Positions 11,441 to 53,094 of a DNA stretch of 64,000 nt are shown here, in pieces. Both the position numbers and the translations under genes were made by a program. Position 1 is the first letter of the stretch; every line of letters begins with the position of its first letter. Origin of the DNA: Komagataeibacter xylinus (GTDB lineage Bacteria; Pseudomonadota; Alphaproteobacteria; Acetobacterales; Acetobacteraceae); the NCBI RefSeq assembly GCF_031081985.1, contig NZ_JARWSK010000003.1:310001-374000 (forward strand), written 5' to 3'. The notes under the pieces are model-generated. The model saw only the letters and a program-made list of their open reading frames with translations. It had not been told where the DNA came from and ran no database searches.

Positions 11441-11905
11441 CTACTCGACGTAAATGCAGACCTGCGTTGCGCTGTCGGCGGGCACGCCCCGGGCATCCAT
11501 CTCGGTCTGGGCGGTGCCCGCGCCCGCATCCATCACCGCCTGCAGCACCGGCTGGCCGTCCGTGTCCACCGCGGCCTTCATGTCCGGCACGCCGCTTGCG
11601 GCGCCCACCGGCACATTGACCACGATGGTGAACAGAGCATTGGGCTTGCGCGCAAGCGCATCGGCCACGGCGGCCCTGACCGCGGGTTGCCACTGCGCGG
11701 GCGGCGTGCCCGCCACGATGGTGACGAGCGGCGGCCTTTCGATGCTCGCAACCTGCGGAACCGGCGTGCTCGGCAGCTTTGGCGGGTCGCCTGCGTGGCG
11801 GTTGAAGGTTTTCTGGCTGACCAGCCGGCATCCGCTCATGGCTGGCAGGCACAGGATGGCTGCCAGAACGGCGCGGCGGACAAGGCGGGAGGACGGACGG
11901 GACAT
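11441..11905 (-). CDS. Putative lipoprotein, 154 aa
   Basis: The N terminus carries a twin-Arg-rich, hydrophobic signal with the lipobox AMSGC (lipidated Cys near residue 26). The mature part has a Pro-rich linker followed by a compact domain with ALFTIVVNVPVG and the C-terminal CIYVE, which alternates beta and helix. No family is recognised. It is divergent from the transketolase-like gene with 133 bp between them, and tandem behind hemA on the same strand, so it could share transcripts with hemA only by readthrough. Confidence 0.62.
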   Translation of the reverse strand: MSRPSSRLVRRAVLAAILCLPAMSGCRLVSQKTFNRHAGDPPKLPSTPVPQVASIERPPLVTIVAGTPPAQWQPAVRAAVADALARKPNALFTIVVNVPVGAASGVPDMKAAVDTDGQPVLQAVMDAGAGTAQTEMDARGVPADSATQVCIYVE

Positions 11906-12038
11906 GACCTGTTACCGATACAGTATCCACCCCGCCCGGCATAGGGGCGCGCGCAGCAATGTTGCCGCAATGCACCGGGCGCAGTAACAGTACCCACCGG
12001 CTCCGACCGATCATACCCTGCTCCATGGACGATGCCGC

Positions 12039-13961
12039 ATGCCCGAAGACCAAGAAGCCCTCGTAATTTCGCCTGCCCTGCAACCAGAAGCCCCTTCCAT
12101 GCCCGATCGGCTGGCAACGGCGATCCGCCATGCCATCGGCGTTCATGAAACCGACCGGCGGCATGCGCCGCACGCCCGGGTCATGGCCGGGCTGTGCGCG
12201 GTGCTGTGGAGTCGCTTCCTGCGCTTCGACCCCGCCAGCCCCGACTGGCCGGACCGTGACCGCCTGGTCATTTCCTCGCCGCGCTACCGGGTGCTGCCGC
12301 GCATCATGGCCGAACTGTCGGGCCAGGCGTCGCGCCCCGGCGCGCCTGCCGCGAGCGACCGGCAGGCCTGCGGCCCCAACGGGCAGGGGCTGGGGGCGGC
12401 GATCGGCATGGCGCTGGCCGAGCAGAAGCTCGCTGCCCGCTTTGGCCGCGCGGTGGTCAACCACCGCGTATGGGCGCTGGGGTGCTGGAGCGAGCTTTCC
12501 ACCGGTGTGGCACTGGAAAGCGCCGCCCTGGCAGGGCAGCTCGGCCTTGACCGCGTGACCCTGGTGGTGGGCCTGTGGAGCACCGAGCGCGAGGAGGTGG
12601 ACACCATCCTGCCGCGCTACAGCGCATCGGGCTGGTCGGTGCGCAAGGTTGATGCGGGCAATACCGAACAGATCGCAAGCGTCATCGCCTCTGCCCAGCG
12701 CACGCACAAGCCGTGCCTGATCGCCTGCATCGCCCCGCCTGAAACCGATCCGCCACCGCCCTTTGTCGATGATCCGGGCCTGTGGGCGGGGGCTGCGCGC
12801 CGGGGGGCGAGCGCGCGGCGCTCGTGGCTGCGCCGCCTGTTCAAGGACCGGCAGAAAGCCGAGTTCGAGCGCATGGCCCGCAACCAGCGCCCCGCCTTCT
12901 GGCAGCCTGACTGGCAGCGTTCGTGGCGCGAGCACAGCGCGCTGCTCGCCCGTGCCTCGCCCGCCTTCTCGGCTCGGCGCGGGCTCGAAACCCTGCATGA
13001 ACTGCTGCCCGAACTGACCTGCCTGCGCTCGCGCCAGGGCATGATGCCCGATTTTTCCGCCCTGCGGCGCAGCAGCGGCGAGCCCGATCTTTCATGCGGC
13101 ACGCAGGTGCATGGCATGGCCGCCCTGCTCAACGGCATTGCGCTGCATGGCGGGCTGCTGGCCTTTGGCGCCACCACCATCATCGCGGTGGATCGCATGC
13201 GCCCTGCCCTGCGCTACGCCGCCATGACCGGCCAGCAGGTGATCTACCTGCTCAGCGATGACGACCTGCCGCGCGGCGAGCATGCGGGCGGCTGGCAGCC
13301 CGTCGAGCAACTGGCCAGCCTGCGCGCCATGCCCAACATGGCGCTGTTCCGCCCCGCCGACCACCGCGAGACCATGGAATGCATGGAACTGGCCCTGCGG
13401 CGCACGACCGGGCCGAGCCTGCTGGTGCTGGAATCCGCCCCCTCGATTGCCGCCGCCGTGCCCGAGCGCGAGCAGCATGGCCTGACCAACCTGTGTGCGC
13501 GCGGCGGCTACGTGCTGGCCGAGGCGGAAGGCCCGCGCCAGGTTACGCTGGTGGCCACGGGGCATGAGGCCATCGTGGCGCTGGGCGCGCGCGCGCTGCT
13601 GCGCGCGGCAAGCATCGGGGCGGCGGTTGTATCACTTCCGTGCTGGGAACTGTTCGCCGCCCAAAAAATGACGTATCGTGCTGCCGTGCTGGGAACAGCG
13701 CCCCGGATCGGAATCGAGGCCGCATCGGGTTTTGGATGGGATCGCTGGCTTGGAACGGGCGGGCTGTTCGTGGGCATTGACGGGTTCGGGGCCACCCCCA
13801 CGCCTGATGCGCCTGACAGCCTGGCCGACATCACGCCGGAGCGGATCTGCCGCGACGCCATGCGGCTGCTCCGCACCCATGACGGAACCGCGATGGAAAC
13901 CGTGGGAGGAAACGGCGCGCCTCCACCATCAGGGACGGCATCGCTCGATGCCAGTGTGTGA
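12039..13961 (+). CDS. Transketolase homologue lacking catalytic residues (probable pseudoenzyme)
   Basis: An intact 640-residue protein with full transketolase architecture. The N-terminal domain includes [20 protein letters not shown] near residue 56 and [18 protein letters not shown] at 112-129, followed by a middle pyrimidine-binding-like domain with NGIALHGG at 365-372 and a C-terminal domain ending near [10 protein letters not shown]. Key thiamine-diphosphate residues are replaced. The catalytic Glu of the GVREH motif is V357 (GTQVHGM), the cofactor motif GDG is ALG (146-148), the SGH His is replaced in SSPRYRV, and the THQPVE His is W419 (GGWQPVE). The family normally exchanges two-carbon ketol units. 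This copy should not bind or activate the cofactor normally, so a regulatory or structural role is more likely. It overlaps or abuts gap and probably shares its transcript. Confidence 0.8.
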
Positions 13962-13993: not shown

Positions 13994-15016
13994 ATGGCTG
14001 TTAAAGTCGCAATAAACGGTTTTGGTCGCATCGGTCGCCTCGTGCTGCGTGGCATCATTGAAAGCGGGCGCACCGATGTGGTGCCGGTCGCGATCAATGA
14101 CCTGGGCAGCGTGGCCGACAACGCACACCTGCTGTCGTATGACAGCGTGCACGGGCGCTTCCCCGCCGAGGTGAAGGTTGAAGGCAACCAGATCATCATC
14201 ACGGCCAATGGCCGCACCTACGCGCCCATCACCGTCTCGGCCGAGGCGGACCCCACAAAGGTGCCCTTCAAGGGCGTGGACGTGGCGCTCGAATGCACCG
14301 GCCGCTTTACCGACAAGGAAAAGGCCGCCCAGCTGATTACCGCAGGCGCGCGCAAGGTGATCGTGTCCGCCCCGGCATCGGGCGTGGACGCCACCATCGT
14401 TTACGGCGTGAACCAGGACGTGCTGACGCCTGACATGACCGTCATCTCGAACGCGTCATGCACCACCAACTGCCTTGCCCCGGTGGCCAAGGTGCTTGAT
14501 GACACGTTCGGCATCGAATGTGGCTACATGGTCACCATCCACTCCTATACCGGCGACCAGCGCACGGTGGACACACTGCACAAGGACCTGCGCCGTGCCC
14601 GTGGCGCCGCGCTGAACATGATCCCGACCTCGACCGGGGCCGCGCGCGCCGTGGGGCTGGTACTGCCGCACCTCAAGGGCAGGCTCGATGGCACCGCCAT
14701 CCGCGTGCCGACCCCCAACGTGTCGCTCGTCTCGCTCGACTTCGTGCCCAAAAAGGCCCCGGCCTCCGTCGAGGAAGTGAATGCAGCCCTGCTGAAAGCC
14801 TCCGAGTCGGGCCCGCTCAAGGGCATCCTCGCCTACAACACCGCGCCGCTGGTCAGCACCGACTTCAACCACTCGCCCGCCTCCTCCACCTTCGATGCCA
14901 CCCAGACGGCGGTGATTGATGGCGGCAAGCTGGTGCGCATCTGCAGCTGGTACGACAATGAGTGGGGCTTCTCCAACCGCATGGCCGACACGGCCGCCGT
15001 ATTCGGTGCCCTGTAA
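13994..15016 (+). CDS. gap: Glyceraldehyde-3-phosphate dehydrogenase, type I
   Basis: A 340-residue enzyme converting glyceraldehyde 3-phosphate, phosphate and NAD to 1,3-bisphosphoglycerate. The N terminus [13 protein letters not shown] is the nucleotide-binding motif, [12 protein letters not shown] holds the nucleophilic Cys, and [11 protein letters not shown] is near the end. The start at 13994 is chosen because GGAG lies 11 bases upstream and the family begins here; an in-frame ATG at 13958 overlaps the transketolase-like gene. The stop overlaps the pgk start in TAATG, indicating translational coupling. In organisms relying on the Entner-Doudoroff route this enzyme handles the triose phosphate released by Eda (encoded at 49.4 kb). 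Confidence 0.97.
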
Positions 15017-16239
15017 TGGGTGCCGCAAGCTTCAAGACGCTCGATGACCTTGATGCCACGGGCAAGAAGGTCCTCCTGCGCGCTGATCTGAACGTGCCGG
15101 TGCGCAACGCCCAGATCACGGACGCCACGCGCATCCTGCGCCTGCTGCCCACCATTCAGGAACTGGCCCAGAAGGGCGCGAAGGTGATTGTGGTCAGTCA
15201 CTTCGACCGCCCCAAGGGCAAGCCGGTGCCTGAAATGTCGCTCGGCCCGATCGCCAACGCGCTTGGGGATGCACTTGGCCGCCCGGTCACCTTTGTCGAT
15301 GACTGCACCGGCCCCAAGGTGCAGCAGGCGGTTGACGCCATGCAGGATGGCGACGTGGTGGTGCTGGAAAATACCCGCTTCTACCCCGGCGAGGAGCAGA
15401 ACGACCCGGCGCTGGCCAAGGAATTCGCCTCCCTGGCCGACTATTACGTCAATGATGCGTTCTCCGCCGCCCACCGCGCCCATGCCTCGACCGAGGGCGT
15501 GGCCCGGCTGCTGCCCTCCTTTGCAGGCCGCCTGATGGAGACGGAACTCAACGCGCTCAACATCGCGCTTGAAAACCCCGCACGCCCGGTGGGCGCGATC
15601 GTGGGCGGGGCCAAGATCTCGACCAAGCTCGACCTGATCGGCAACCTGCTTGAAAAAGTGGACATGCTGATTATTGGCGGCGCGATGGCCAACACCTTCC
15701 TCGCTGCCCAAGGCGTGGATGTGGGCCGCTCGCTGCAGGAGGCCGAGATGCACGACACCGCGCGTGCCATCATGGCCAAGGCGAAGGAAAAGAACTGCGA
15801 AATCATCCTGCCGGTTGATGTGGTGACCGCAACCGACTTCAGGGCCGACGTGCCCACGCGCACGGTGCCGGTCAATGCCATTCCGGCTGACGCCATGGCG
15901 CTCGACGTGGGGCCGGAGACGGTCAGGCTGATCAACGGGAAGCTCGCCACGCTGAAAACGCTGGTCTGGAACGGCCCGCTTGGCGCGTTCGAGATCACGC
16001 CGTTCGATACGGCCACCAATGAAGTCGCCCGCGAGGTGGGCCGCCTGACCGATGCAGGCGCGCTCAAGAGCATTGCAGGCGGTGGTGATACGGTCTCCGC
16101 CCTGCGCCATGCGGGGGTGGAGAAGCATATCTCCTACATCTCGAGTGCTGGCGGCGCCTTCCTTGAATGGCTGGAAGGCAAGACGCTGCCCGGCATCATG
16201 GCGCTTGAAGCCGTGTTTGAACGGGCCATGCCCATCTGA
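15016..16239 (+). CDS. pgk: Phosphoglycerate kinase
   Basis: A 407-residue enzyme transferring phosphate from 1,3-bisphosphoglycerate to ADP. Motifs include [11 protein letters not shown] near the N terminus, [24 protein letters not shown]-like [14 protein letters not shown], the hinge and ADP side [16 protein letters not shown], and the C-terminal [13 protein letters not shown]. Full family length. The start shares one base with the gap stop, so the two are co-translated. A terminator follows at 16263, closing the operon with gap and the transketolase-like gene. Confidence 0.97.
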
Positions 16240-52885: not shown

Positions 52886-53094
52886 CCTGTCTGTCCTGCC
52901 TTGGGCTGGGATACCGTATCCCTGCTGATGTGGTCCGTGCGGGCGCAATAAGCAAGGCCCCAACCTGCCATGCGGGGCCGCTTTGGGCGTATGGCACGCC
53001 CGACCTTCCGGTCGGGGCCGCATAACGGTATGCTGTCGCGCGATTTTGCGCCAGATGGCGCAGACCACTCCCCGTTTACCGGAGCATTTCGTTC

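Follow-up and report, generated by a model that had tools for sequence, protein, structure and literature searches.

The gene at the head of a tkt-gap-pgk cluster in Komagataeibacter xylinus encodes an intact, selected and apparently catalytically dead homologue of transketolase, which we consider, with a probability of roughly 0.78, to be a pseudoenzyme that arose in situ once its chemistry had passed to another transketolase. It lies in a stretch of 64,000 nt, here called the window, from a genome of 3.53 Mb. Sequence comparison shows that the tkt of an ancestral tkt-gap-pgk cluster was stripped of its residues for thiamine diphosphate and substrate in acetic acid bacteria and their near relatives, and that all 36 genomes found in this state have a second, fully canonical transketolase; the loss would have been stepwise, because partly eroded relatives exist. 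The protein presumably still folds and probably still pairs in the manner of a transketolase, and it may act non-catalytically through a conserved linker and the C-terminal domain.

The reading frame of 640 codons has zero internal stops (Table 1), and its product scored above the Pfam cut-offs for Transketolase_N, Transket_pyr and Transketolase_C_1 (PF00456/PF02779/PF22613), which confirms the uninterrupted frame with transketolase architecture reported in the original prediction. Against NCBIfam TIGR00232, the transketolase equivalog, it reached 285.5 bits, below the cut-off of 682.25 bits. The AlphaFold model, computed as a single chain with 39 relatives, adopts a transketolase fold (pLDDT 80.3, pTM 0.83), and in a Foldseek search against the PDB all 50 matches listed were transketolases, with E. 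coli 2r8o on top (TM 0.80, 26% identity). Two loops near the former active site (337-347 and 409-418) are variable or of low confidence in this model. The closest named record comes from K. xylinus NBRC 15237 (98% across the whole protein). A sequencing or assembly artefact was excluded, because in other Komagataeibacter records orthologues with 79-98% identity show the same degree of degeneration.

Table 1. Features of the tkt-gap-pgk region, in positions of the window
Feature	Position	Strand	Remarks
Small lipoprotein-like ORF, divergent	11441..11905	-	Lipobox by eye; no Pfam match
Near-palindromic TACCGATACAGTATCC, divergent intergenic region	11913..11928	.	Identical in 8/8 Komagataeibacter sequences compared
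Pseudo-transketolase, 640 aa	12039..13961	+	Degenerate; head gene of the tkt-gap-pgk cluster
Linker segment, aa 249-300	12783..12938	+	Ends ...AEFER; crown-row mean retention 0.83
C-terminal domain, aa 471-612	13449..13874	+	Crown-row mean retention 0.82; PCWELFA among its motifs
gap, glyceraldehyde-3-phosphate dehydrogenase	13994..15016	+	GGAG Shine-Dalgarno-like sequence upstream, by eye
pgk, phosphoglycerate kinase	15016..16239	+	407 aa from the chosen start; start overlaps gap stop by one base

The state of the active site was scored against E. coli TktA in an alignment of 146 rows (L030, L031, L034 and L073 are omitted from it and from the trees) at 17 cofactor or catalytic positions, which, together with their presumed roles, were chosen from general knowledge of transketolase structure. 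The window protein scored 1/17: the other 16 positions are altered or deleted, which bears out the claim that the cofactor and catalytic landmarks have been replaced. The changes (TktA>window) include D155>W150, E160>T155, E411>V357, F434>T380, F437>A383 and Y440>R386; the histidines are affected by H66>R82, H461>D407 and H473>W419 and by deletion of H100 and H261; further changes are R358>A309, S385>M336, D469>H415 and R520>S466. N185 is aligned with W180, or with a gap in another alignment. The sole match, H26/H42, carries little weight because the residue at this position varies among close relatives (H, Y, Q, D, A or E). Among the substrate residues (H26, H66, H100, H261, R358, S385, H473 and R520), seven of eight are thus lost. 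In addition, segments of the protein around E. coli residues 90-102, 185-191 and 247-279 are shortened or deleted, with deletion of columns conserved among canonical enzymes around 90-102, 189-191 and 247-279.

Two replacements named beforehand, that of the catalytic Glu by V357 and that of the THQPVE histidine (TktA His473) by W419, were recovered in these alignments. The GDG motif is lost as claimed, but its equivalent is C149-W150-S151, three residues beyond the ALG (146-148) originally named; together with W180 or a gap at N185, this removes the whole GDG...N motif for thiamine diphosphate and Mg. A pairwise HMMER alignment to the Thermus transketolase gave the same result for GDG, Glu and His473. 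Displacement of the motifs would have overturned the original prediction; Glu and GDG were searched at shifted positions in the pairwise HMMER and several multiple alignments and were not found there. Of the marks of a functional transketolase, fold and domains are thus present, whereas Glu411, GDG...N, most of the substrate residues and a sufficient TIGR00232 score are lacking. The protein is apparently catalytically dead as judged from its residues, although changed residues alone do not prove inactivity.

The chemistry itself is probably covered elsewhere. Two transketolases scoring 17/17 are encoded on other contigs of the same genome (L001 on C10 and L002 on C3), so that the expected canonical enzyme was found twice; they are 83% identical to each other and each about 29% identical to the window protein. 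A separate, residue-checked 17/17 transketolase exists in all 36 genomes of our family set in which the cluster copy is dead. In 31 of these it belongs to a clade of its own, here denoted type A, and in five to other kinds. Among the 37 genomes with a canonical or nearly canonical cluster copy, for which second transketolases were counted as type A only, seven have type A (Fisher p = 6e-9, shared ancestry ignored). These seven, with operon copies at 13-17/17, show the redundant stage.

To what extent the protein is still selected was assessed within Komagataeibacter, using the window and seven other records. The pseudo-transketolase had a median dN/dS of 0.097 by YN00 (range 0.061-0.137; 27/28 pairs) and 0.204 by NG86 (27 pairs), compared with 0.020 and 0.046 for gap, 0.050 and 0.089 for pgk, and 0.047 (just 5/15 pairs usable) and 0.120 for canonical tkt, a set that contains paralogues and one other genus. 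The value is about twice that of canonical tkt and clearly exceeds that of gap, yet it is far below 1. By this measure (dN/dS about 0.1-0.2), purifying selection acts on the dead copy in Komagataeibacter, which agrees with the low ratio expected in the original prediction. In windows of 60 codons, NG86 dN/dS ranged from 0.07 to 0.41, and the lowest window dS was 0.38, i.e., synonymous divergence never approached zero along the gene. No stop occurred within the match in 9/9 Komagataeibacter genomes listed. A pseudogene was rejected for Komagataeibacter on these three grounds. Loss of catalytic residues within a kept fold and, in Komagataeibacter, purifying selection are two of the properties of a pseudoenzyme, besides a non-catalytic function. 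Across the family, 57 degenerate operon-type rows are open frames of 497-733 aa; these frames were defined from stop to stop, which makes their openness partly a matter of construction, and several rows represent one species in two collections.

Conservation was compared in 286 columns that show a conservation of 95% or more across 43 canonical transketolases of the operon type. At a threshold of 90%, 94 of these columns are still conserved among the 32 degenerate rows of the crown, and 81 among the 13 outer rows. Not one of the 17 active-site columns is still conserved in degenerate rows (Fisher p = 0.001, indicative since the rows are related). Because 94 of the 286 columns are kept as opposed to 0/17 in the active site, the losses, as far as alignments tell, are concentrated there. 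Retention in the crown rows is highest in the linker (0.83) and the C-terminal domain (0.82), followed by the core of the first domain (0.61), the pyrimidine domain (0.57), the rest of the first domain (0.51), the N-terminus (0.31) and the start of the second domain (0.23). The linker motif is nearly alike in canonical and dead operon copies. New residues have become fixed as well: in 27 dead rows, 20 positions carry a residue that reaches a frequency of 90% or more and departs from the canonical consensus (17 rows); R386, R202, R254, R271, W292 and C353 are examples. Arginine at the former Tyr440 occurs in 27/27 of these rows; several more distant dead rows are without it.

Canonical operon copies (17/17) are found in Acidocella facilis, Acidiphilium rubrum and several alphaproteobacterial MAGs, where gap, and mostly pgk too, follows the homologue. 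Judged by this distribution, the order tkt-gap-pgk is ancestral, and the tkt inside the cluster is the gene that lost its own active site. The placement ahead of gap and pgk was therefore described correctly in the original prediction, but it is not a recruitment. Selection for a non-catalytic function stands insofar as the homologue is intact, selected and apparently dead; the expectation that all orthologues share the same substitutions failed, since details vary by lineage and partly eroded forms exist. For instance, at Glu411 a V is present in Komagataeibacter, Gluconacetobacter and the genus coded g73, whereas several Acetobacter still have E, and partly eroded operon copies retain 16, 15, 13, 11, 11, 7 and 5 of the 17 positions. 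Within one genus (coded g92), three stages of erosion occur in three genomes: L051/L186 (13/17), L021 (11/17) and L025 (3/17).

In the main tree (89 rows, LG+G4), the operon copies of Acetobacteraceae form a single clade of 60 rows (SH-aLRT 100), in which an inner clade (35 rows, support 99) holds most of the fully degenerate copies. Copies scoring 17, 16, 15, 13, 11 and 11 branch beside this inner clade with supports of 80-88, and a degenerate copy with 7/17 (L024) is placed among canonical ones (support 96). The label "degenerate" needs three changes on this tree, of which the starred branches force two; some of the long branches leading to the most degraded rows are flagged as unsafe. On a 38-row mixture-model tree, from which the 17 columns had been removed, a score of at most 11/17 needs four changes and one of at most 7/17 needs two. 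From the number of state changes on both trees, the active site seems to have been lost more than once. Some outer members, with 0-2/17 sites, have branches near one change per site; long branches and faster evolution fit weakening selection in some outer lineages. We also observed a transketolase relative with 11/17 but without adjacent gap or pgk in the Rhodospirillales MAG PL25a (L077). It lies outside the operon clade, was excluded from the intermediates and is perhaps a separate erosion.

The family set comprised 200 genomes, of which 108 were examined in the region upstream of gap; among the remaining 92, some had the gap match at the end of a contig or had none among the gap matches listed. 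The 108 consist of 80 stretches hand-picked, non-randomly, from the gap matches listed and 28 reached from transketolase loci. Because we chose these 80, the following counts are not frequencies. Seven genomes were partial or uninformative (L178, L183, L192, L200, L206, L212, L217). Among the 101 classified, 36 hold a degenerate copy (G009 and G123, represented by L030 and L031, were called dead from the second half alone), 37 a canonical or nearly canonical one with 13-17/17 (L218 among them is truncated by the end of its contig), and 28 none. The dead copy directly precedes gap in 35/36 genomes, the exception being G117; 28 of these 35 came from transketolase loci and seven from reading upstream of gap. 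Orthologues in the same position, as predicted, thus occur in Acetobacteraceae.

The 28 genomes without a transketolase gene upstream of gap belong to other acetic acid lineages and retain gap. In 26 of them the small divergent ORF that adjoins the dead gene in the window is separated from gap by a few hundred bases, on its upstream side; in L167 and L168 the divergent lipoprotein-like ORF was not found. No transketolase remnant was detected upstream of gap in the 26 genomes by tblastn at 1e-4, and when all 28 were searched with the window protein for a dead copy anywhere, the best match in each was a canonical enzyme (16-17/17). Since the gene is absent from these 28 genomes, the function of the pseudo-transketolase is dispensable in those lineages. 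As gap persists beside the same neighbour in 26/28 losses, expression of gap and pgk is possible without the frame.

Given that the window protein is a pseudoenzyme, the likeliest partners would be the GAPDH and PGK of its own cluster, a choice that we make tentatively; it is favoured because of the steady place before gap, even beside different kinds of transketolase. The regulator or scaffold for the triose-phosphate enzymes or the true transketolase, as put forward in the original prediction, would be a candidate form of such a role. Because canonical operon copies share the conserved linker motif and C-terminal parts, the ancestral enzyme probably had the non-catalytic function already, and the function would be inherited rather than new. 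It is possible, with slightly less confidence still, that the transketolase of the tkt-gap-pgk cluster had an ancient non-catalytic role at the triose-phosphate branch point, where it would have docked to GAPDH/PGK or been their allosteric partner. The takeover by another enzyme would then have exposed a hidden role, and selection would now preserve that role alone, in the linker and C-terminal domain. If this holds true, the series of eroded copies would be a natural experiment that separates moonlighting from catalysis.

Alternatively, the dead subunit could form a heterodimer with the canonical transketolase and tune it, in the manner of TKTL1 and TKT in humans. Motifs that we take to be often located at the dimer interface of transketolases are largely kept, and every one of the 36 dead-copy genomes offers a canonical partner. 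TKTL1-TKT heterodimers provide a precedent (PMC6555833). However, the dead copy has only 29% identity to type A and adjoins gap in 35/36 genomes. Because it also persists beside canonical enzymes of different kinds (type A in 31/36, others in 5/36), a transketolase-specific regulator is less likely, and we regard it as improbable overall. Somewhat less probable again is a new function of the emptied thiamine site, in which the fixed Arg386 and other arginines would bind a phosphorylated metabolite, making the protein a sensor or a new enzyme. The 20 newly fixed positions, R386 included, would agree with this, but both loops at the former site are variable or poorly modelled, and retention is lowest in the N-terminal region (0.31) and at the beginning of the pyrimidine domain (0.23).

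Deletion in the 28 other acetic acid genomes, a dN/dS above that of the canonical enzymes and the very long branches of outer members could also indicate a leftover that decays slowly under relaxed selection after its replacement and has no present function. The Komagataeibacter ratios of about 0.1-0.2, the stop-free matches in all nine genomes listed, the 94/286 canonical columns kept in crown rows and the fixation of new residues such as Y440>R (27/27 rows compared, not every outer row) argue against it, and we consider it quite unlikely. We give very little credence to the frame being kept solely for expression of gap and pgk through Rho polarity, translational coupling or an internal promoter: the spacing is tight, with 32 bases from the stop to the gap start and overlapping gap and pgk, but constraint acts at the amino-acid level (dN/dS, column retention), the lowest window dS of 0.38 is never near zero, and in 26/28 loss genomes gap follows a few hundred bases after the same divergent neighbour. 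Retention for polarity only is thus disfavoured by loss genomes that keep gap and by conserved protein columns.

The pseudo-transketolase resembles a canonical bacterial enzyme such as E. coli TktA in its three domains, fold and ancestry, and in the gap/pgk order of relatives; unlike TktA, it is without the residues for thiamine diphosphate, Mg and substrate (1/17). The nearest known case is human TKTL1. It is reported to have 38 fewer active-site residues, to miss two conserved histidines and to coexist with the canonical enzyme; it retains the catalytic Glu366 and was argued from models to be a bona fide transketolase (PMC6334435). Recombinant TKTL1 alone was reported to be virtually inactive, and the heterodimer with TKT to have altered activities (PMC6555833). 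The common feature is an eroded relative alongside a canonical transketolase. In contrast to TKTL1 as described there, the Komagataeibacter copy has lost the Glu and is more deeply eroded. Here, moreover, it is the ancestral gene of the cluster that died, and another transketolase took over. Papers on the trypanosomatid AdoMetDC prozyme and the dead paralogue of DHS report dead homologues that activate their partners (PMC5201418, PMC3663545). As in those cases, a dead homologue is kept alongside an active one, but for the prozymes a functional complex is reported, whereas the pseudo-transketolase is not known to form one. A literature search at the level of titles and abstract openings, covering few subscription papers, brought up no account of a bacterial pseudo-transketolase.

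Pseudoenzymes as such are already known; the death of a central enzyme in place, within its own cluster and with the protein still selected, provides useful material. To our knowledge, such a graded, family-wide death of a core enzyme in place, with continued selection on the protein, is rare. Living stages of 17/17, 16, 15, 13, 11, 7, 5 and 0-4 as well as deletion make it possible to ask for which reasons other than catalysis a core enzyme is kept. Komagataeibacter is a leading producer of bacterial cellulose, and metabolic models that count the pseudo-transketolase as a working transketolase would probably be wrong. Four genes are listed as transketolase in the genome paper of Gluconacetobacter xylinus CGMCC 2955 (PMC5908849).

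Binding of nucleic acids, suggested by basic charge, was considered and rejected: the median pI is 8.3 in 54 dead vs 6.5 in 86 canonical proteins with overlapping ranges, and the Arg-rich linker is also present in canonical operon copies. In genome G117 (L027, L146) the dead transketolase keeps its lipoprotein-like divergent neighbour, and gap is located on a different contig, so that the cluster is split. The near-palindromic TACCGATACAGTATCC between the divergent genes could, by its sequence, be an operator or part of a promoter. Its inner ACCGATACNGTATC matches the genome exactly at a single place. As operator of a regulon the 16-mer was dismissed, as it had four one-mismatch matches in the genome vs four for the reversed control, i.e., no regulon was found. 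A second GATACNGTATC palindrome is located at positions 52910-52920 of the window, compared with 0.01 occurrences of the pattern expected by chance.
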